Shown piece after piece: positions 15,422 to 26,754 of a stretch of 36,588 nt of DNA (within the stretch, counting starts at the first letter, position 1; each line of letters starts with the position of its first letter). Made by a program: the position numbers and the translations under genes. The notes under the pieces are model-generated. The model saw only the letters and a list, made by a program, of their open reading frames with translations, was not told the DNA's origin and searched no databases. The DNA is from Natrinema gari JCM 14663 (lineage in GTDB: Archaea > Halobacteriota > Halobacteria > Halobacteriales > Natrialbaceae), in assembly GCF_000337175.1 (NCBI RefSeq), contig NZ_AOIJ01000035.1, positions 51,417-88,004 of the forward strand, read 5' to 3'.

Positions 15422-16891
15422 ATGCTTACCGGCTGGCGGTATCGGCTCGCAAGCGCGACCGGGACGGCGGCACTCGTCGTCATCGCGGTGCTCGTCGCGA
15501 ACCACCCGGTCTCTCAGAGCGCGTTCACGACGGTCGTTCCCCTGTTCAATCGGTTAGAACCGACGATCCTCGATGGCCCGTCGCTGCGACGGGCCATCGC
15601 GCTGAGCGTCTTCGCGGTCGGGGGCGCGGCGTGGCCACTCTATAAACCCCGCCCTCGACGAATCCTCGATACAGTCGTCCTCGTCCAAAAACGGGTCTTC
15701 GTCGGGGGCTTCATGCTCGCGACGCTGGGCTACTTCAAGTGGTCACACCGGCTTCCCCGGGCGACGCTCGTGATGACCGTCGGTCTGGTGGCGGTCGTTC
15801 TCCCCGTCTGGTTTCTGCTGATTCGCGCCAGACCGACCGACGACGACGGCCGGATCGTGATCGTCGGCGACGACCCCGCACAGATCGCGCGGGTCACGCC
15901 GGCCGTGGACGCGCCCGTGATCGGCTACCTCTGCCCGACGGTCGCCCGACTCGCGACATCGGCGGCACCCGCGGACAGTCCCACCGAGCCAATCGCCGAC
16001 GGTGGGGTCGAACTCCGCCACGACGACCCCGAATTCGCGGACGAAGCCGTCCAGTCGACCGTTCTCGACTCGATGACGCGTCTCGGCGGTCTCTCCCGAC
16101 TCGAGGACGCGCTGGTGGCACACGATATCGACACGGTCGTGCTGGCGTTTCGCCACGCCGACCGCGCCGAATTCTTCGGCGCGCTGGATGCGTGTCACGA
16201 ACACGGCGTGGACGCGAAAGTTCACCGCAAGTACGCCGACAGCGTGCTGGTGTCGGAGGGAGATGTCGGCGCACTCGTCGACGTCGATCTCGAGCCGTGG
16301 GACCCGCTGGATCATCTGTTCAAGCGGCTTTTCGACGTGGCGTTTGCCGGTGTCGGGTTGCTCGTGTTTGCGCCGTTGATGACAGTGATTGCAGTCGCGA
16401 TCAAGCTCGACAGTCCCGGACCAATATTCTACAATCAGGACCGTACCGCTGGATTCGGGGATACCTTTCCCGTGTACAAATTCCGCTCGATGATTCCTGA
16501 AGGGGAATCGGCCATACCCATCACCGACACGGAAAACGATCGAATCACACGCGTCGGGTACTTCCTTCGAAAGACACATCTGGACGAACTCCCGCAGTTG
16601 TGGTCGATTCTCGTCGGGGATATGAGCGTCGTCGGCCCGCGAGCCGTCTGGACCGAAGAGGAATTGCTTCTCGAGGAGGACGCCCCAGCGTGGCGCAAGC
16701 GCTGGTTCGTGAAACCCGGACTGACCGGCCTCGCACAGATCAACGACGCGAAAAGCACCGATCCGAACGCGAAATTACGCTACGATCTTGAGTACATTCG
16801 ACGGCAGTCGTTCTTGGTCGATGTGAAAATCGTCATTCGGCAACTCTGGAAAGTCGTATCCGATCTCTTCAAATTGGCTTCTGACGACTGA
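15422..16891 (+). CDS. polyprenyl glycosylphosphotransferase (initiating sugar-phosphate transferase)
   Basis: Attaches the first sugar phosphate to a membrane polyprenyl phosphate, starting a lipid-linked glycan. In 489 residues it has four to five N-terminal membrane segments (residues ~10-140) and a soluble central region (~145-290) with a Rossmann-like piece, [18 protein letters not shown]. Next is the bacterial sugar transferase domain (about 295-489), entered by the membrane helix [20 protein letters not shown]. Its diagnostic motifs are [44 protein letters not shown] and [11 protein letters not shown]. Length and layout match WbaP/WcaJ-type enzymes. The sugar is not predictable. It opens the glycan region and lies in normal GC-rich DNA. 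Confidence 0.93.
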
Positions 16892-16920
16892 ATTCCCAGG
16901 CCGATCTGCCGTACCCGCTA

Positions 16921-17811
16921 AGTATTCACCTTCTCGTCGCTGGCGATGTCGGCTCTCTCGGATGTAATATCTCGAGTGCCCTCGTCGCCGACAACGAGGT
17001 CCGCATCCTCGATGATCTCTCGACCGGTTCCCGATCAAACGTCCCCGAGGGCGCGACGTTGATCGAGGGTGATATCAGAGACGATGACGCGCTCGACCGA
17101 GCCACCGCTGATATCGACATCATCTTTCACCACGCAGCGCTGATCAGCGTCGAAGCGTCCATCCGCGATCCCGAACGAACCCACGATGTCAACGTCACCG
17201 GGACCGTGAAGCTACTCGAGCGCGCACGCGACGAATCCGCGCGGTTCGTGTTCGCCTCGAGTGCAGCTGTCTACGGCCACCCGGACACGGTGCCGATTTC
17301 GGAAGACGCGCCCCTCGAGCCGACGTCACCGTACGGTCTCTCGAAGCTTGCCGCCGAGCGGTACGTCCGACTATACGCCGATCTCTACGACCTCAGTGCC
17401 GTCGCACTTCGCTACTTCAACGTCTACGGTCCGGGACAACTGGACGGCGATTACAGTGCCGTCATCAGTGTCTTCGTCGATCAGGCAGCGGCCGGCGACC
17501 CGATCACCGTGGAGGGAGACGGCTCGCAGACGCGCGACTTCGTCCACGTCGACGATGTCGTCCAAGCGAACCTGTTGGCGGCGACAGCTGAAGAGACAGG
17601 GACGTTCAACGTCGGCACAGGCGAGAGCGTTTCCATTCTCGAACTCGCCGAAATCGTTCGGGACCTTTCCGGTTCGGACCCGGAAATCACCTACACGGAA
17701 GCCCGTGCCGGAGACATTGATCGGAGTCGAGCCAGTGTTTCTAATATCGAGTCGAGTCTCGGGTTTGAGCCGTCACTTTCGCTCGAAGATGGATTAAGAG
17801 AAATAATCTAA
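16921..17811 (+). CDS. NAD-dependent sugar-nucleotide epimerase/dehydratase with damaged N terminus
   Basis: An extended SDR enzyme of the UDP-glucose 4-epimerase type. The body is intact: FASSAAVYGHP, the catalytic pair in SPYGLSKLAAERY, LRYFNVYGPGQ, and a normal C-terminal end (SLEDGLREII). Family-like sequence begins near 16921, but the frame is closed by a stop at 16882-16884. There is no ATG, GTG or TTG before a TTG at 17059, which would remove the whole NAD-binding loop. Only CTG codons (16888, 16906) are available. The loop reads LLVAGDVGSLGCN where relatives have GGAGFIG, keeping the three glycines but losing flanking residues. It begins about 30 bases after the sugar transferase. It may be a decaying gene or use a non-standard start. 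The coordinate given marks recognisable homology, not a proven start. Confidence 0.7.
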   Translation, partial: SIHLLVAGDVGSLGCNISSALVADNEVRILDDLSTGSRSNVPEGATLIEGDIRDDDALDRATADIDIIFHHAALISVEASIRDPERTHDVNVTGTVKLLERARDESARFVFASSAAVYGHPDTVPISEDAPLEPTSPYGLSKLAAERYVRLYADLYDLSAVALRYFNVYGPGQLDGDYSAVISVFVDQAAAGDPITVEGDGSQTRDFVHVDDVVQANLLAATAEETGTFNVGTGESVSILELAEIVRDLSGSDPEITYTEARAGDIDRSRASVSNIESSLGFEPSLSLEDGLREII

Positions 17812-17916
17812 CTCATTGAATGATAAATTCTCTGTCGGTGACACTACAGACATTAGTTTGGGGATTAAGACTACCCATATCATTGCCCATAATTGAGATA
17901 AATAGTCTGATTAGGT

Positions 17917-19017
17917 CTATTCATACACGTCTTCATAAATATCCTGCATGTTCTTGAGCATTTTTCCACGGGAGAAAAGCCTCTCCACACGCTCTCGTGC
18001 CTGTTCCCCGTATAGTTGACGAAGATTTTCATTTTCGATGAGTGTATTCATTGCCGTGGCTAATGCTGGAGTGTCACGCGGTGGAACTGTAATGCCTGTT
18101 TCACTATCTTGGCTCACCCATGGCACTCCTGTCGGAAGCGATGTGTTCACAACTGGTGTCTTCCGTGCCATTGCTTCAAGTTGAACGATACCAAACGCTT
18201 CACTTGCTTCTACAGAAGGGAGGACAAAGATATCCGAAGAACGGTATGCGCTTGCGAGATGAGCATCCGAGAGACGTCCAAGAAACTGTATCCGATCGTC
18301 GACGTTTTGGTCTCGGGCCCGCTGTTCAAGTTCTGATCGACGCTCGCCGTCTCCAACAATGAGCAATGTTGCATCAACCGACTGCATCGCATCAACAAGA
18401 TATTCTACCCCTTTGTAGTAATTGAGACGGCCTACAAATAGGATAATTGGTTCTTCTGAAGCAATGTTTAAGTCTGCGGGGTTTTCAGTGTCGATAGCAT
18501 TAAGATCGACTGACAGAGGAACGATCTTACACTTTTCTTCGTAGGGCTCAAGCACGGTGGAGTTGTCAAGCAATCGCTGTGAAGTGACGAGAATACGATC
18601 AACTCTATTAAGAAAACGTCTGAGGATGGGGAGATATACTTTTAGTGCCGTCTTTTGACGGATAATATCGCTATGATAGGTAGCAATAATTGGCTTATCA
18701 CCGGTACCAATAGTGAGTTGCGAGACAGTCGAAAGCGGATTTGGGAGATGATGATGGACAATATCTGTATCACGAATGGCTGTTCGAAGTCGTAATGGAA
18801 ACGATGGTGCAATTGGAACTGATTGTACGACTCCAAGACTTGATGTTTTTGTTACTTTCACTCCGTTGTGCTCTCCCGAACCTCCAATACCTCGCGGCTG
18901 TGCTGCTAGAACGCGAGTTGTGTATCGTGGAGGAAGTCCTTCAGCGATATTCTTAACGACCTGCTCGATACCTCCAATTTGCGGATAGTAGAATTTATTG
19001 ACCTGTAATATATCCAT
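17917..19017 (-). CDS. GT4-family glycosyltransferase
   Basis: A 366-residue retaining glycosyltransferase of GT-B fold. The N-terminal acceptor domain starts VNKFYYPQIGGIEQVVKNIA. The donor domain has ILFVGRLNYYKGVEYLVDAM near residue 190 and the nucleotide-sugar motif EASEAFGIVQLEAM near 285 (the E-x7-E pair). No membrane segment is visible, so it acts on the cytosolic face on a lipid-linked acceptor. The donor sugar cannot be read from sequence. It is the last gene of the minus-strand glycan block, separated from the polymerase-like gene by 99 bases, so it may have its own promoter. Codon use is AT-rich, unlike genes outside the island. Confidence 0.92.
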   Translation of the reverse strand: MDILQVNKFYYPQIGGIEQVVKNIAEGLPPRYTTRVLAAQPRGIGGSGEHNGVKVTKTSSLGVVQSVPIAPSFPLRLRTAIRDTDIVHHHLPNPLSTVSQLTIGTGDKPIIATYHSDIIRQKTALKVYLPILRRFLNRVDRILVTSQRLLDNSTVLEPYEEKCKIVPLSVDLNAIDTENPADLNIASEEPIILFVGRLNYYKGVEYLVDAMQSVDATLLIVGDGERRSELEQRARDQNVDDRIQFLGRLSDAHLASAYRSSDIFVLPSVEASEAFGIVQLEAMARKTPVVNTSLPTGVPWVSQDSETGITVPPRDTPALATAMNTLIENENLRQLYGEQARERVERLFSRGKMLKNMQDIYEDVYE

Positions 19018-19116
19018 GGTTGGTGAATTTACGGAACTAACTCCTATTAGATAGACAATCTACAAAAAGAATTCGATATGCGTGGTTATTTCGGAATTAT
19101 CCAACGGAACACTATG

Positions 19117-20709
19117 CTATTGGTCACCATTGACCAATGTTGCACAAATCGTGTAGAATGTGAAAGACCCCACAATAGAATTAAAAAGAAGGTGGTCCCA
19201 GAACATGAACCCAAGGTAACCAAGAACTCCTGCAAGAACGGCGATTTGGAGTGGAATTGTGTCTGTTGTGATAACCACCTTTTGCATTCCTTGCCATAGA
19301 ATCGTAGCCAAGAAACTCATATAAAGAACGAAACCGACGAATCCAGTTTCGGTAAGTAAGGAGAGATAGATATTATGTATCGGCAACCCGTCAGTAAGGC
19401 CATATTTTTGGCTGGTATCTGCAAAGTTTGCACCACCAATCCCAAATATCGGTTGTTCAATAAAAAGTGAGATTCCTGTTGTATACTGTTGAAGCCGCGG
19501 GCCAAGGTTTGATAGATCGAACATTGGAATCGAAATGTCAGATGGTTCTACTGCTGAACTACTTTCTGTTGACTCTTTTTGAGCAGTTTGTTCTTCCGTA
19601 GATTGAGAGCCTTGTTGGGGTAGTTGCTCACTCGGTGTGCCAGACATAGTCGATGGGAAAAGAACAATACCTGTACACAGAATCATAATCGTAAGAAAAA
19701 TCGCTAATGTGCGGCGGTTCGTACTGACATTCTCCTTTATTAACATGATTAGCGTTAGTGTGGAAAACACACCTATAGCTAATAATGCTCCCCCTCGTGC
19801 AGCATCACTAGCAGTAAATCGGAGTACGAGGATAAGAATCAATGCTGAGGCCGCACCTATAATTTGAATACGCAGGGATCCCCCTAACAGGGATGACAGT
19901 ACGAACGGTAATACCAGTATAATTATACTCGCAAGGATAAACGACATACCCGAAAACCCAGAAACAAATGTACCGACTGGTAACGTAATCGATCCAAACG
20001 TAATTTCCGCGATTTGGTCAGTATACTCCGGCGATAATTCACCAAGATTTGTAAGTCCATAGGAGTCCCCGTGAAAGATCTCCGTAAGGGCGAACACTGA
20101 GTTAGCTAAGACAGAGATAGATACGAGAATCATTGTTGTTCTTGGAGAGACTGGAAGCATCTGATGAACACGTCTTACGGCCGCAAATACAAGTCCCCCC
20201 CAAAAGACAAACAATGCAAAATATAGGGCAGTATCAAGGCGAGTAGGTTGCGTTACCACAGATGCAAGGATTACCCATCCAACGAATATTCCAAGGAATA
20301 ATTCACTTTTGTGTACTTGAAGGAACTGCTCTTTGTCTCGAACAAAGAGCACAAATAGGAGTATAAAGAGAGGTATATGAGCAAACCAGATACTAGGTCC
20401 GATATCCCTTGTCATGCTCATTAGGTATCCGCGTGAGGACAGAGGGATATTTGCAGCAAACATCATAGATACAATCAATGAGACATACACTCCAATGGCC
20501 ACCCTCCCGATAACGAGCGCAGTCACACCGTAAATAAGACCAATAATTACTACCCAACCAAGTGTTGGAAGTGGTGTTACTAATGAGAGAAATGGGGTAA
20601 ACACAGTTAACCCGATTGAGAGAATAATGCAGAGAGTATACGCATCTCGCTCTGCTGTTTGGTGGGTATTAAATAGCGGAAAGCGATCCAAGTACTCAAT
20701 TTTCATCAT
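19117..20709 (-). CDS. O-antigen ligase/polymerase-like membrane protein (Wzy_C family)
   Basis: A 530-residue polytopic protein with about ten to twelve hydrophobic segments. A large external loop (roughly residues 355-395) is rich in Ser, Thr, Gln and Glu. After the loop comes the family signature region: TTGISLFIEQPIFGIGGANF and then LPIHNIYLSLLTETGFVGF, where the HN-x-(Y/F)-L and following E-x-G residues are characteristic of WaaL/Wzy proteins. The role is joining or polymerising lipid-linked oligosaccharides on the outer face of the membrane. Whether it is a polymerase or a ligase cannot be decided. The first of two adjacent ATGs overlaps the upstream glycosyltransferase stop by four bases, so they are co-translated. 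Confidence 0.88.
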   Translation of the reverse strand: MMKIEYLDRFPLFNTHQTAERDAYTLCIILSIGLTVFTPFLSLVTPLPTLGWVVIIGLIYGVTALVIGRVAIGVYVSLIVSMMFAANIPLSSRGYLMSMTRDIGPSIWFAHIPLFILLFVLFVRDKEQFLQVHKSELFLGIFVGWVILASVVTQPTRLDTALYFALFVFWGGLVFAAVRRVHQMLPVSPRTTMILVSISVLANSVFALTEIFHGDSYGLTNLGELSPEYTDQIAEITFGSITLPVGTFVSGFSGMSFILASIIILVLPFVLSSLLGGSLRIQIIGAASALILILVLRFTASDAARGGALLAIGVFSTLTLIMLIKENVSTNRRTLAIFLTIMILCTGIVLFPSTMSGTPSEQLPQQGSQSTEEQTAQKESTESSSAVEPSDISIPMFDLSNLGPRLQQYTTGISLFIEQPIFGIGGANFADTSQKYGLTDGLPIHNIYLSLLTETGFVGFVLYMSFLATILWQGMQKVVITTDTIPLQIAVLAGVLGYLGFMFWDHLLFNSIVGSFTFYTICATLVNGDQ

Positions 20710-21863
20710 GATACCACCTCGTCAGTAATTTGCTTAATTTCGTACTGGAATCGAGATCGTCCGAAGTTCTCATCAATATTTGGTAATTTTTGTTGAACGC
20801 TCTTCTGCTTCTCTTCACTTCTCAAAATAGATTCTATCTTTTGGACCGCATCGTCAACCGAATCGTACATGACATCATCACAGTGACCAACGACCTCCTG
20901 TTGTCCACCCCCCTGAGGCACAAACGGAATAGTTCCACCAGCAATAAGCTCGGCGACGGCGATACCGAAGTGCTCATGATCCATTCCGTGGAGACCATAT
21001 TTATGTGTCGATATTAATTCAATCAGTCGGTCACGACTTACCTCACCTTCGTGGTGGATAAACTCATACTTTTCACACTTTCTCATAACTTTGTCACAAT
21101 AGCTTTCTGAAAAAGGTGATGAATACCTATCCATTTTAGGGCCAATTATATGATAATGTACATCATCATTCCTCTTATGTAGTTTTGATATTATATTTAT
21201 ATTTCTCAATATGTTCTTTTCTGGACTGATTCTTCCTACGGTTACAAAGCCGTTCTCGCGACTTTCCCAGTCTAGTGGATCAAAGTCAGAAGTATCTACT
21301 GGTGGATATACCGTCCGCGAATTCACACCTAGTGCCTTATCCACCTTATCCCCAGTCCAATCAGAATTAGATAAATATTCTGTATTTTCTTTATTCCCTT
21401 GTAGTGAGGGTCCAACTACGTCACAGACCCAGTCATAAGCAGAATAAATGGATGTTGAAAAATCATCTGCGTTCGGATGAACATTTCTATCAGTGTATGG
21501 GAAATGTATATATTGAATAGATTTGCAAGGAACTCGTAGCTCATTATATGTGCTGAAGAGTAAATCGTATTTATCTCCTAAATTATTATTAATAATATAT
21601 GATTCTAAAAATGCCATTTTTAGTTTCCCAAACCGGTTTTTTGGTAACCGATGTGAAATTGCACTTAGACCATCAATCAACCGTATATTTATATTGGTAA
21701 CAGATGTAGCATAGTACTTGTTCAGATCAGTGAAATCTGGGTCGCTGACCGTAAGAAGATCCACATCATGCTTTTCTTGTAGCGCTTCTAAAACATTCAT
21801 GCAAACTAATTCACCTCCACCTTTCGCCATTAATGTGGGGTGAATGATGAGTATCCTAGCCAT
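20706..21863 (-). CDS. GT4-family glycosyltransferase, ALG11-like
   Basis: A 385-residue GT-B glycosyltransferase resembling the ALG11 type of mannosyltransferase. It begins ILIIHPTLMAKGGGELVCMN, the Gly-rich acceptor loop. The middle has SIQYIHFPYTDRNVHPNADD and NSDWTGDKVDKALG. The donor half has GRISPEKNILRNINIISKLH near residue 213 and HEHFGIAVAELIAGGTIPFV near 305, typical of ALG11-like enzymes. No transmembrane helix is seen. It starts one base after the flippase stop and overlaps the Wzy-like gene, so these three form one operon. Strongly AT-biased codons mark it as part of the island. The sugar is unknown. Confidence 0.9.
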   Translation of the reverse strand: MARILIIHPTLMAKGGGELVCMNVLEALQEKHDVDLLTVSDPDFTDLNKYYATSVTNINIRLIDGLSAISHRLPKNRFGKLKMAFLESYIINNNLGDKYDLLFSTYNELRVPCKSIQYIHFPYTDRNVHPNADDFSTSIYSAYDWVCDVVGPSLQGNKENTEYLSNSDWTGDKVDKALGVNSRTVYPPVDTSDFDPLDWESRENGFVTVGRISPEKNILRNINIISKLHKRNDDVHYHIIGPKMDRYSSPFSESYCDKVMRKCEKYEFIHHEGEVSRDRLIELISTHKYGLHGMDHEHFGIAVAELIAGGTIPFVPQGGGQQEVVGHCDDVMYDSVDDAVQKIESILRSEEKQKSVQQKLPNIDENFGRSRFQYEIKQITDEVVS

Positions 21864-21864
21864 A

Positions 21865-23319
21865 CTAAATTATCGCGTTGAGCATCTTTCTTACCCGTAC
21901 TACTTCACCACTTCGGAACTCACCGAAGGCTAAAAGGACCAAGAAATAGATAATTCCTCCGATAATACCAACAAGACATAGAAATATGTCTGATAAATTT
22001 GATATGTATCCAAAATATCCGATGAACGACATAATACTGCCTGCGAAAAAGACACGAATAATTGTGTTTCGTGGAATAGTCCAGGAAACTGTTTTTCTTG
22101 ACATTACGTATGCAAAGCCGACGTAGATCCCCGAGCTCAAGACTGTAGCGAATGCAGCACCCACGTACTCATATGGCGGAATCAGGAATATATTTAGGAC
22201 TATGTTCGAAGTCACAGCAAGTATGACTCCGCCAGTCATAATGCCTGTTGACTCATACAATTCTAACCCCTTATGGCCAATCATAGCAAGATTCCAAAGG
22301 AATAATGACACTCCGATTATTGGAATGATAACAAATCCTGATTGAAAGGATTCTCCAAGTACAGTTCTACTAAGTGGGCGGCTAATAATACCAGCAAAAA
22401 TGGTAGCGGCAACCCCGAGTATTAAATAATATCTACTGTATTCTGCGATCAATGATGAAACCGTTTCATGATTTTCTCCATCCCATTTATCCATAATAAT
22501 CGGATGCAGAGTTTGGATGACTGGTGAAAGTACTAAGGGAAGCCCAGTTTGTACAAGAGAGTAATTGGATGAATAGATTCCAACATCCGATGTCGTGGAC
22601 AGCAGTTCAATCAAGGCTCGATCTGCAAATGTAAGTAATGTCAATCCGAATAACCATCCAACCATTGGAAGTCCATACCAAACTAGTCGGCGAGCAGTAT
22701 TGGAACTAACAGTCAATTCATCTATATCGATCTTGATGAACATAACAAGAACAGCGATAATGCTCCCTATTGCACTACCCCAGATCCATCCAACAATATT
22801 GTCAAAAACATATATAGAAAGGACGATTCCAATACTAAGTTTAAGTACTGCCTTCAATAATGAATACAGACTAACCTGTTTTGACTTTAACTGTGCTTGG
22901 AACACTGATTTTAGTACACGGAATGCCCCAATACCGATAGTTGCAGCAACCGCGGCTAGGTAGAAAGTCCGGTAGGACCTCAAATATCCTCCAAAGAATA
23001 CGAATAGAACCACTCCAATTGTGAGAATAATACCTGAAATAAGAACAAGAATAGTGATTGCGACTGGAACAACTTTCTTTGAGTCAGATTCAAACCGCAG
23101 TACGGCTTGTTCAAGCCAACCAAACACTGCTGTCGAAACGACTGTAACAAAAACAATTGTTAATTAATATTGGCCATATGCAACAGTACTAAAGATTCTA
23201 GTGTAAATCACGAGGGAAACCAAACCAAGGGCTGCTGGAATGAACTCAGCTAGTGTATAAAAACCAAAATCTTCTATAAACTGGGATATAATATTCGAAT
23301 TCGAACTCTCGTCGCTCAT
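21865..23319 (-). pseudogene. Wzx-type polysaccharide flippase interrupted by an in-frame TAA
   Basis: A flippase (MATE/MurJ-like polysaccharide exporter family) of 484 codons that should flip lipid-linked glycan outward. From the ATG at 23319, the first 51 codons encode a normal first helix, including FIEDFGFYTLAEFIPAALGL and IFSTVAYGQY. The next codon is TAA (23164-23166). In the same frame the sequence then continues without gap into VFGWLEQAVLRFESD and about 12 further hydrophobic segments to the end. Relatives have an unbroken AYGQY-to-FGWLEQ stretch. A GTG at 23127 could give a 420-residue protein lacking the first helix. Either the gene is inactivated by one nonsense mutation, the internal start suffices, or this is a sequencing error. 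Confidence 0.85.
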
Positions 23320-23383
23320 TGTAGATATATATTGAGGGGGTGTCTTACGATTATCTGTTGGGAGTAAGACTACGGTTAGACGG

Positions 23384-23647
23384 TCATTCTTTATCTAATT
23401 TAAGTGCACTACCATCAAGATCACCGTTGAGATACGCACGGCCAGTATCAGTAAGCCGGTATAGTCCAGTCGTGACTGACTCAAGTAATCCAGCCTCGGA
23501 TAATTTCCCGCACCGTTTGCTCACGTACTGGCGATCGTAATCGATGTTGGCGGCCAACACTCGCGGAGAAGTTTGGATGTCGTGCTCGTCAAAGAACAGC
23601 ATAATCTCGTAATCAACCGGTGCCATCCAGGAAACCCGCTCAACCAT
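23384..23647 (-). CDS. small winged-helix regulator, PhiH1-repressor-like
   Basis: An 87-residue protein with a winged-helix domain of the kind found in many haloarchaeal PhiH1 phage repressor-like proteins. The typical start is WMAPVDYEIMLFFDEHDIQT, the recognition helix region DYDRQYVSKRCGKLSEAGLL, and the wing TTGLYRLTDTGRAYLNGDLD. It probably binds DNA as a dimer. The start could be ATG 23647 or Met8 at 23626. Composition is intermediate. It lies at the upstream edge of the AT-rich glycan block on the same strand and may regulate it, or be a leftover of a mobile element. No operator could be assigned with confidence, although a 15-base inverted repeat lies about 55 bases upstream. Confidence 0.85.
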   Translation of the reverse strand: MVERVSWMAPVDYEIMLFFDEHDIQTSPRVLAANIDYDRQYVSKRCGKLSEAGLLESVTTGLYRLTDTGRAYLNGDLDGSALKLDKE

Positions 23648-23702
23648 CTTTTGCAGTTATCCAGACCCAGGAGGGAAAATTGGTACTATCCCTGGGGAAC
23701 AT

Positions 23703-23741
23703 AACCATGTACGTAGAGAAATAGAATCTACGTACGTGGTT
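23703..23741. repeat. 15-base inverted repeat (hairpin or operator)
   Basis: Left arm AACCATGTACGTAGA (23703-23717), loop of nine bases, right arm TCTACGTACGTGGTT (23727-23741). The arms match at 14 of 15 positions, and the single C/T difference still allows a G-U pair in RNA. It lies between the PhiH1-like regulator start and the GC boundary. It could be a regulator operator, a terminator-like hairpin or the end of a former mobile element. Confidence 0.7.
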
Positions 23742-24000
23742 GAGATTGTATTGGTGTGATGGATAACTGAAAAATATGAGTACTGTGATCTGGAATCGAT
23801 TGAATTCCGAAAATACACTTCAAAGACGTGTTGTGCTAGTTATCGACACACCCGCTTCTTCGTTGCAGACGATGACTGATAACAATTCTCGAGATCATAA
23901 CGATCCCGACCGATCGAACGAACCGCCAACCGACCAGCCCGACCGCGCGACATGATCATCGTCGACCGACCGCTCTGACAACCGTACGGCCGGCTATTGT

Positions 24001-24285
24001 ATGGCCCTGATCCGGACCAATCACCTGGTGAATGGCTTACTTACCCATCTCGAGCGGGACGCCGACCTCGACGACGAGGCGACCAGGCGCTGCAAGCGCC
24101 ACCTATGCGAGAGCAGGGCCGAGGCGACGCGGTGCGCGTGCTGGTGGCCGTCGAGCCGCGGCCGGAAATTGAAGCCGTGCCGATGGTCGTCGATCGGGGA
24201 ACGGGGACAGTTGTCCCATCGCGGGCCCGAGCCGGACGCGTTCGAGCGCCGACGGGAGCGGTCCGAGTCCGACAGACCCGAGTGA
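24001..24285 (+). CDS. doubtful 94-codon frame, possibly a decayed gene
   Basis: The first ~43 codons (MALIRTNHLVNGLLTHLERD, then ADLDDEATRRCKRHL) have good haloarchaeal codon bias and a plausible acidic helix. After that the frame turns Cys/Trp/Arg-rich, while the frame starting one base earlier reads AVRVLVAVEPRPEIEAVPMV, which looks more protein-like. Near the end the first frame again looks natural (PEPDAFERRRERSESDRPE). This is what two compensating frameshifts would give. I do not recognise the family. The frame could also be chance in GC-rich DNA. Confidence 0.3.
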   Translation: MALIRTNHLVNGLLTHLERDADLDDEATRRCKRHLCESRAEATRCACWWPSSRGRKLKPCRWSSIGERGQLSHRGPEPDAFERRRERSESDRPE

Positions 24286-24297
24286 GAAAGCGGCCGC

Positions 24298-26754
24298 TTA
24301 CGCGCCAACTGCGACCGAGCGTCCGTCCAGCACGTCGCCCTTGGTGACGGTCGCCGTTCGGTTGCCGATCGCGTACTCGCCGGCGTACGGGACCGTTACC
24401 GTCGCCTGTCCGCCGTCGTCGATCGTCGCCCGTCGTTCGTACGTGATCGTCTCACCCGAGACGGAGACGGTCGTCTCGACGGTCACGGTCGTCCCTGGCT
24501 CACCGGGCACTGTGAGCGTCGCCCCGGGGACGACGGCGAACGCTGCGACATCGTCGGCGACGGAGAGCGCCTGGTAGTGGACGACCCCGTCGGTGTCGGC
24601 CCCGCCTGCGCCCTGATTCTCGAGCAAGCGCGCCTGTGCACTGTCGGCCGGGACGTCTTCGTCATTGGACTCGGTTACGACGACGTAGCCGACCCGCCCA
24701 TTGAACGTGTCGTACCAATCATCCGGATCGGTACCGGTGACGAACGCTTCGTAATTGTTCTGGGCATACGAGTATCTCTGCGACTCGCCGTTGACGAAGT
24801 GGTTGTACATCCGGTTGTCGCCCCACTCGCTCAGGACGTAGGTTTTCGGATAGGTACGGTCCGCGGCCTCGGCGTGGTCGTCGATCGCGTCGACCGCCTC
24901 GAGTTGGGCTTCGCTGTAGGTCACGTCCGCCGTCAGGCTGGGGACGTAGACGAGACTCAGCCCGAACACAAGCAGGCCGATGCCGAGCAGGTAGGCGATC
25001 CGTCGGCCGTCCGGTATCGCAATTGCCGGCTCGAGCCCGCCGTCGGCGGCCACCGCCGGTTCGGCGTCGGAGCGATCCAACGGACCCGGTTCCGAATTAC
25101 CGACCGAAACGGGCGGCCGGGCCAGGTCGACGACTGCGAGCAGTCGGACGAGCCCCAGGCCGGTGAGGACGGCCAGCGGAATCGCGAGCTGGCCGGCGAA
25201 TCGCACTTGGATGGCCGCGAGTCCGAGGAGGGACCCCGCGTAGGTACCGACGAGCAACCAGCCGGGTTCGTACCGCCGGGAGACGAGCCACGCGACCCAG
25301 CCGAGCACCGCCAGCGCGATGTAAAACCCCATCCCGAGCTGGTAGAGCGGCCCGAAGATGACGAAGTACTCCGTCGAGAACAGCGAGGCCGTCTCGGTCG
25401 CACCCTCACGGAAGAACAGATCGTCGGCGCGGGCCATTGCTTCCACCCAATCCTCGGGTTGCAGTCGTCGAAACGCGAGCAGCCCCGCGACGGCGACACC
25501 CCCTTCGAGGGCGAGCAGTCCGCCGAGATGAACGGATAGCCGCCGCCACAGTTCGCCGAGCACGGCCACGGCGATCGACCCGGCGAGCACCAGCGTGGGC
25601 GTCGTCGCGACGAACTCCGCGTGCCAGCCCCAGCGGTGGTGCAGGACAAGCGAGAGGACGCTCCCGACGGCCAGCCCGGCGAGCAGCGGTAGGTTCGCGC
25701 GCATCGGTGAGAGACCGGCTCGAGCGTCCATCGCGACCCGTAACGCGACGTAGCCCGCGAGCGGGACCAACAGGAGCGGCGAGCCGCCCCAGGCGTGAAC
25801 CCCGGCGGTCACCGAGAGCCCGAAGGCCGCGGCGACGAGCCACGTCGCGGGTGCCCGGAGGTGGTCGCGAACGGCTGCCCGCCCGTCATCACCGGTCTCG
25901 AGTCGCCGCTGGAGGTCGACGGCGAGTCGCGTCAGTGTCAGGATCGTAATCCCGAGCCAGAAGTATTGATGGAGTTGGTGATCCAGAAAGCCGAGTCCCG
26001 TGTAAACCGCGTTGATCGGCGTGACGGCGAAGACGAGGACGGACGCGACCCCGACGCGAGCGTCCCGGGTCAGCGAGACGGCACACGCGTAGATCGCGAC
26101 GCCGAGCGCGACCGACGCGACGACGGGGAGCCACGCCGCGACGGTGTCGGCTGCCCCCTGTCCGCCGCCGAGCAACTCGGCGACGATCCAGTTCGTCGCA
26201 TGTGCGAAGGGGCGCGTCCCGAAGACACCGGCCGGCGAATCCACGAGGACGCCGTAGTCCAGCGGTCCCGAGGAGTCCGCGACCAGCGTTTCCATCCAGT
26301 AGCGGAAGTAGTAGGGATCGTTACCGGGCGAGACGACGCGGCCGCGCTGAAAAACGGCCCGAAACGCCGTCGCTCTGGCACCGGCGACGACGACCAGTGT
26401 CCCGAGCAGCGCGATCATCGCTCGCGGATCGATGGCCGTCCGGACCCATTCGAGTCCGCCCGCGCGGTCGGCCGGCTCCGGCTCGCGGTCCGCCGTGAGT
26501 TCGTCCCCGGTCAGGGCTGCCTCGACGACCGCGGGGTCCGCAACGCGATACCCATCGGCGGCGTTTTCGACGATGCCGCTCGAAACGAGTTCGCCGAACG
26601 TCCCCGAGTCCAGCTCGATGTCGTCGAACGTCCAGGTATCGTGTTCGCCGTCGGTCGCGAGGACGGTCTCGAGCACGTGGTCACCGTCCTCTCGGGCCTC
26701 CAGGAAGGCCCTCGTCGCGTCGGCGATCGCCCTCGAATCGCTGTCCTCGGCCAT
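24298..26754 (-). CDS. STT3/AglB-type oligosaccharyltransferase with extra N-terminal domain
   Basis: Transfers lipid-linked glycan to Asn of exported proteins. In 818 residues, positions 1-85 form a soluble domain (TWTFDDIELDSGTFGELVSS then IVENAADGYRVADPAVVEAA) that looks winged-helix-like. The first membrane segment is at ~112-134, followed by the DxD-like motif GNDPYYFRYW (Asp146) and about eleven more segments. The C-terminal domain has VLSEWGDNRMYNHFVNGES, with Trp644 in the place of the WWDYG motif, so the canonical motif is replaced. This variant form seems related to the archaeosortase-system-associated STT3 family rather than classical AglB, though I could not test that. It is the first GC-rich gene after the island and probably uses glycans made there. 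Confidence 0.88.
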   Translation of the reverse strand: MAEDSDSRAIADATRAFLEAREDGDHVLETVLATDGEHDTWTFDDIELDSGTFGELVSSGIVENAADGYRVADPAVVEAALTGDELTADREPEPADRAGGLEWVRTAIDPRAMIALLGTLVVVAGARATAFRAVFQRGRVVSPGNDPYYFRYWMETLVADSSGPLDYGVLVDSPAGVFGTRPFAHATNWIVAELLGGGQGAADTVAAWLPVVASVALGVAIYACAVSLTRDARVGVASVLVFAVTPINAVYTGLGFLDHQLHQYFWLGITILTLTRLAVDLQRRLETGDDGRAAVRDHLRAPATWLVAAAFGLSVTAGVHAWGGSPLLLVPLAGYVALRVAMDARAGLSPMRANLPLLAGLAVGSVLSLVLHHRWGWHAEFVATTPTLVLAGSIAVAVLGELWRRLSVHLGGLLALEGGVAVAGLLAFRRLQPEDWVEAMARADDLFFREGATETASLFSTEYFVIFGPLYQLGMGFYIALAVLGWVAWLVSRRYEPGWLLVGTYAGSLLGLAAIQVRFAGQLAIPLAVLTGLGLVRLLAVVDLARPPVSVGNSEPGPLDRSDAEPAVAADGGLEPAIAIPDGRRIAYLLGIGLLVFGLSLVYVPSLTADVTYSEAQLEAVDAIDDHAEAADRTYPKTYVLSEWGDNRMYNHFVNGESQRYSYAQNNYEAFVTGTDPDDWYDTFNGRVGYVVVTESNDEDVPADSAQARLLENQGAGGADTDGVVHYQALSVADDVAAFAVVPGATLTVPGEPGTTVTVETTVSVSGETITYERRATIDDGGQATVTVPYAGEYAIGNRTATVTKGDVLDGRSVAVGA

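Follow-up and report, generated by a model that had tools for sequence, protein, structure and literature searches.

The described proteins with which the flippase analysed here can be compared are the lipid II flippase MurJ (6NC6, 5T77) and the ECA flippase WzxE (9G9N) and, among haloarchaea, Agl15 and AglR of Haloferax volcanii. The latter two are predicted or proposed to be flippases of N-glycosylation and are likewise flippase-type proteins of a variable glycosylation cluster (PMC5867893). The likeness to Agl15 and AglR is one of type and locus, and the cluster described here differs from theirs in containing a Wzy_C protein and in having a divergent STT3-like neighbour. Comparable variable loci are the alternative glycosylation clusters of Haloferax (PMC5867893) and the cell-wall island of Haloquadratum (PMC4535781).

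Organization of the surface-glycan cassette

The DNA originates from Natrinema gari JCM 14663 (GCF_000337175.1), the assembly of which is a draft of 88 contigs. The window, which is the whole stretch analysed, has a length of 36,588 nt and corresponds to positions 51,417-88,004 of contig NZ_AOIJ01000035.1. It contains a cassette (about 17900-23650) with a GC content of ~37-46%, in contrast to mostly 61-71% in the surrounding chromosome. Four genes are encoded on its minus strand in the order Wzx, GT1, Wzy-like protein, and GT2. The Wzx-type flippase gene (21865-23319) has one in-frame TAA inside. It is followed by an intact family-4-type glycosyltransferase GT1 (20706-21863), the start codon of which is adjacent to the stop codon of wzx, an intact Wzy_C or O-antigen ligase-like polymerase or ligase (19117-20709), which overlaps GT1 by four bases, and a second intact glycosyltransferase, GT2 (17917-19017). 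Because GT1 starts immediately after the wzx stop and overlaps the wzy gene, it is possible that the TAA in wzx has a polar effect on GT1. Upstream of the cassette, on the same strand, lies a gene for a small putative winged-helix-type regulator (23384-23647), which has weak Pfam matches below the cut-off, and DNA similar to it is present in many haloarchaea of the family.

The cassette is bordered on the left by genes for a Bac_transf initiating glycosyltransferase and a sugar epimerase, and on the right by a gene for a divergent oligosaccharyltransferase paralogue of the STT3/AglB-like type (24298-26754, minus strand), which is 90% identical in the sister species G001. The STT3/AglB-like protein does not reach the cut-off of TIGR04154, the archaeal STT3 model, and the canonical AglB of the same genome is encoded on contig C39. 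In G001, these three flanking genes are the same (81-90% identity to those of the window), and the low-GC cassette between them is another one, which contains an intact Polysacc_synt flippase of its own. The cassette thus occupies a surface-glycan locus of variable content.

The flippase frame contains a single premature stop codon

The frame running from 23319 to 21865 on the minus strand comprises 484 codons: 51 residues, a TAA, and 432 residues, after which codon 485 is TAG, the natural stop. Its translation contains a single premature stop and no frameshifts. In 484 random codons with the base composition of the flippase gene, ~29 stops are expected, and the probability of finding one or fewer is ~2e-12. 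The remaining five frames across the region contain 13-42 stops each, which together with the chance expectation identifies the frame as that of a real gene. The translation bears out the first-pass annotation of this DNA, which described an in-frame TAA at 23164-23166 after 51 codons, with flippase sequence resuming in the same frame, and GTG 23127 as the first in-frame start beyond it. The N-terminal fragment (23167-23319) gives no Pfam match when scored alone. The part encoded downstream of the GTG (21865-23127, 420 residues) matches the Polysacc_synt model PF01943 with 37.3 bits (curated cut-off 28.2) and the Polysacc_synt_3 model PF13440 with 33.4 bits (curated cut-off 23). According to these Pfam scores and the predicted MOP fold of the read-through protein, the gene encodes a Wzx polysaccharide flippase (Polysacc_synt) of the MOP superfamily. 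However, its open reading frame is not complete across both lobes, and the gene is, as sequenced, a broken member of the superfamily.

Predicted structure of the flippase

The AlphaFold model of the read-through protein, which was folded with an alignment, has a mean pLDDT of 87.6. For this read-through protein, AlphaFold and Foldseek predict the many-helix MOP fold, which is a fold of 12-14 transmembrane helices. MurJ and WzxE match the fold over its full length with TM-scores of about 0.7-0.8, while having merely 13-17% sequence identity to it, and a sequence-level search of the PDB with the flippase gave no match. The Wzx-type identity proposed previously is corroborated by the Pfam scores, the alignment of relatives, and the MurJ/WzxE-like predicted fold. 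Archaeal systems differ from those of MurJ and WzxE in their lipid carrier, which is dolichol phosphate.

In the model, helix 2 is formed by residues 45-75, and the premature stop at codon 52 is located within it. The 51-codon fragment thus covers the first transmembrane helix and the beginning of the second. The GTG corresponds to residue 65, 13 codons beyond the TAA, so that a protein restarted there would be missing the first transmembrane helix and most of the second. Judging from the model, such a product, if made, is most likely inactive, and the function of the flippase is likely lost.

Comparison with relatives and the age of the lesion

The flippase was aligned with 19 full-length relatives, from 15 other genomes and including the paralogue on contig C21 of the same genome. 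All 19 read without interruption through the position of the stop, and the aligned column contains only the small residues alanine, serine, and threonine. This indicates that the ancestral flippase had a sense codon there and that a substitution, not an insertion or deletion, created the TAA. Before and after the stop, the homologues can be aligned in one and the same frame, with no indel nearby, in agreement with the previous proposal that one base change suffices, and the comparison at the stop position supports a single nonsense event well. An intact frame across the lesion, as in all 19 relatives, is one of the features expected for a recent nonsense pseudogene. The alternative that the sequence before the stop encodes a conserved short protein is rejected, since each of the 19 relatives is one continuous protein.

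No close orthologue of the flippase was found in the genus. Its nearest relatives, with 45-52% identity, are from other haloarchaeal families and include that of Halolamina salifodinae; the C21 paralogue is 46% identical. A search of genome contigs with the flippase protein alone found no relative, a search with a reduced alignment recovered relatives from Halolamina and Bacillales, and a search of plasmids returned distant matches only.

Apart from the stop, 49 residues are shared by at least 90% of the relatives, and the flippase retains 48 of them, on par with intact relatives; it contains no other stop. The earlier suggestion that the undamaged remainder of the gene points to a recent event or a sequence error therefore holds. 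In a simulation of neutral substitution, the observed state, defined as no second stop and at most one conserved residue lost, had a probability of 0.29 with 10 substitutions, of 0.08 with 20, and of 0.03 with 30. The lesion, if real, is accordingly younger than ~2% neutral divergence (~30 substitutions). The same preservation equally fits a base error, a mutation in culture, or a gene that is still used through a restart.

The reading that we favour, with a probability of about 0.74, is that the flippase was recently inactivated by a single nonsense substitution and that its loss is tolerated. The cassette-specific Wzx would carry a lipid-linked oligosaccharide through the membrane to supply the neighbouring Wzy-like polymerase or ligase. 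With codon 52 changed to a stop by one nonsense substitution, ribosomes starting at the ATG would produce the 51-residue peptide. The loss could be tolerated owing to the presence of several glycan clusters, a substitute flippase, or low expression of the cassette. The gene is probably a very young dead copy, produced by an ordinary kind of event.

The epimerase gene and a probable recombination tract

The NAD-dependent sugar epimerase gene (16889-17811, plus strand) has no ATG, GTG, or TTG at the start position of its relatives, where the five or six nearest of them have an ATG. The Rossmann motif is also altered, to GDVGSLG from the GGAGFIG of the relatives. Past codon 26, the gene is strongly conserved up to 17565, with nine amino-acid-changing and 29 silent codon differences from that of G001. 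Its sequence suggests that the epimerase may be another gene of the locus that has been disabled, or that it may use a rare or alternative start codon.

A sharp-edged tract from 16382 to about 16963 covers part of the Bac_transf gene as well as the first epimerase codons, and the start of the epimerase is located at the right edge of the tract. The tract differs from both sister species in ~18-48% of bases per 60-base block. In contrast, the two sister species differ from each other by 0-17% across it, and the flanking blocks mostly differ by less than 17%. Up to about 16855, which is most of its length, the tract is closest to a gene of another species of the genus (82%). The pattern of divergence points to a recombination mosaic.

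It is possible, although unlikely, that the stop in the flippase belongs to a wider decay of the glycan locus, which would overlap with the favoured inactivation rather than exclude it. The epimerase without a usual start codon, with its altered Rossmann motif and its position next to a foreign recombination tract, is consistent with such decay. However, the other genes of the cassette are intact, and the strong conservation of the epimerase from codon 26 to 17565 indicates that it may start at another codon.

In bacteria, a stall in a pathway of this kind can do harm because lipid carrier becomes trapped (PMC11813082). Such trapping would favour, in a strain tolerant of the stop, low expression or a second, upstream lesion. 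A link between the two lesions, in which the loss of sugar supply relieves the trapped carrier and recent selection, for example by a virus, acts against the glycan, is very unlikely.

Alternative explanations of the stop codon

It is improbable that the stop is an error of sequencing or assembly, or a mutation of the laboratory culture, and that the natural gene is intact. The stop is a lone difference in an otherwise intact gene, the assembly of 88 contigs is a draft, and the gene is located in AT-rich DNA, all of which would fit an error. However, isolated wrong bases are uncommon in assemblies of normal coverage, and the cassette contains no cluster of other broken frames.

Continued use of the gene, with a shortened or scarce flippase produced by restart at GTG 23127 or by read-through, is very unlikely. 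The GTG is close behind the stop, and the 420 codons from there onwards are well preserved. However, the restart product would be deprived of the membrane segments described above, the whole N-terminus is kept in all relatives, and no ribosome-binding motif is apparent directly before the GTG when the sequence is read by eye. Read-through is opposed by the nearby genes supported by homology (SDR, epimerase, STT3-like, and nucleotidyltransferase), which terminate in TAA, indicating that TAA acts as a normal stop here. Recoding of TAA is rejected on the same grounds, and to our knowledge none is known in archaea. In annotation, the locus should be entered as a pseudogene of a flippase, or the base checked for error; a natural protein of 420 residues beginning at GTG 23127 should not be annotated.

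A reversible phase-variable switch of the surface glycan, which the first-pass annotation had considered, can practically be dismissed: although phase variation commonly affects the genes of surface glycans, 17800-24300 was found to contain neither repeats, whether tandem, direct, or inverted, nor an invertible segment, and a lone TAA without an indel is not a slippage site but a substitution that would revert only by chance.

A second, intact cassette in the same genome

The Wzx-GT1-Wzy unit is present again in the genome, on contig C21, where the three genes are open and encode 490, 381, and 554 residues. This cassette (L052, 10842-17224) and that of Halolamina salifodinae (L095/L099) have the three genes in the same order as the window, with identities to it of 45-47% for the flippases, 44-46% for GT1, and 36% for Wzy; unlike in the window, all three genes are open in both. 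The genome also encodes at least three more distant flippases. The effect of the stop may therefore be limited to one glycan. Wzx proteins are described as having a strong preference for their own substrate (PMC6436433), and rescue by the 46% identical C21 paralogue is thus possible but not assured. We infer only that the strain might export a different glycan, as had been suggested.

The locus provides one more example of the fast turnover of haloarchaeal surface-glycan cassettes, through the exchange of cassettes, recombination, and the simple loss of genes. The flippase of Halolamina salifodinae is 86% identical to that of C21, even though Halolamina belongs to another family, which indicates that the Wzx-GT1-Wzy unit is passed from one haloarchaeon to another. 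The C21 cassette is flanked by two transposase genes and, judging from its sequence, is probably a horizontally transferred unit.
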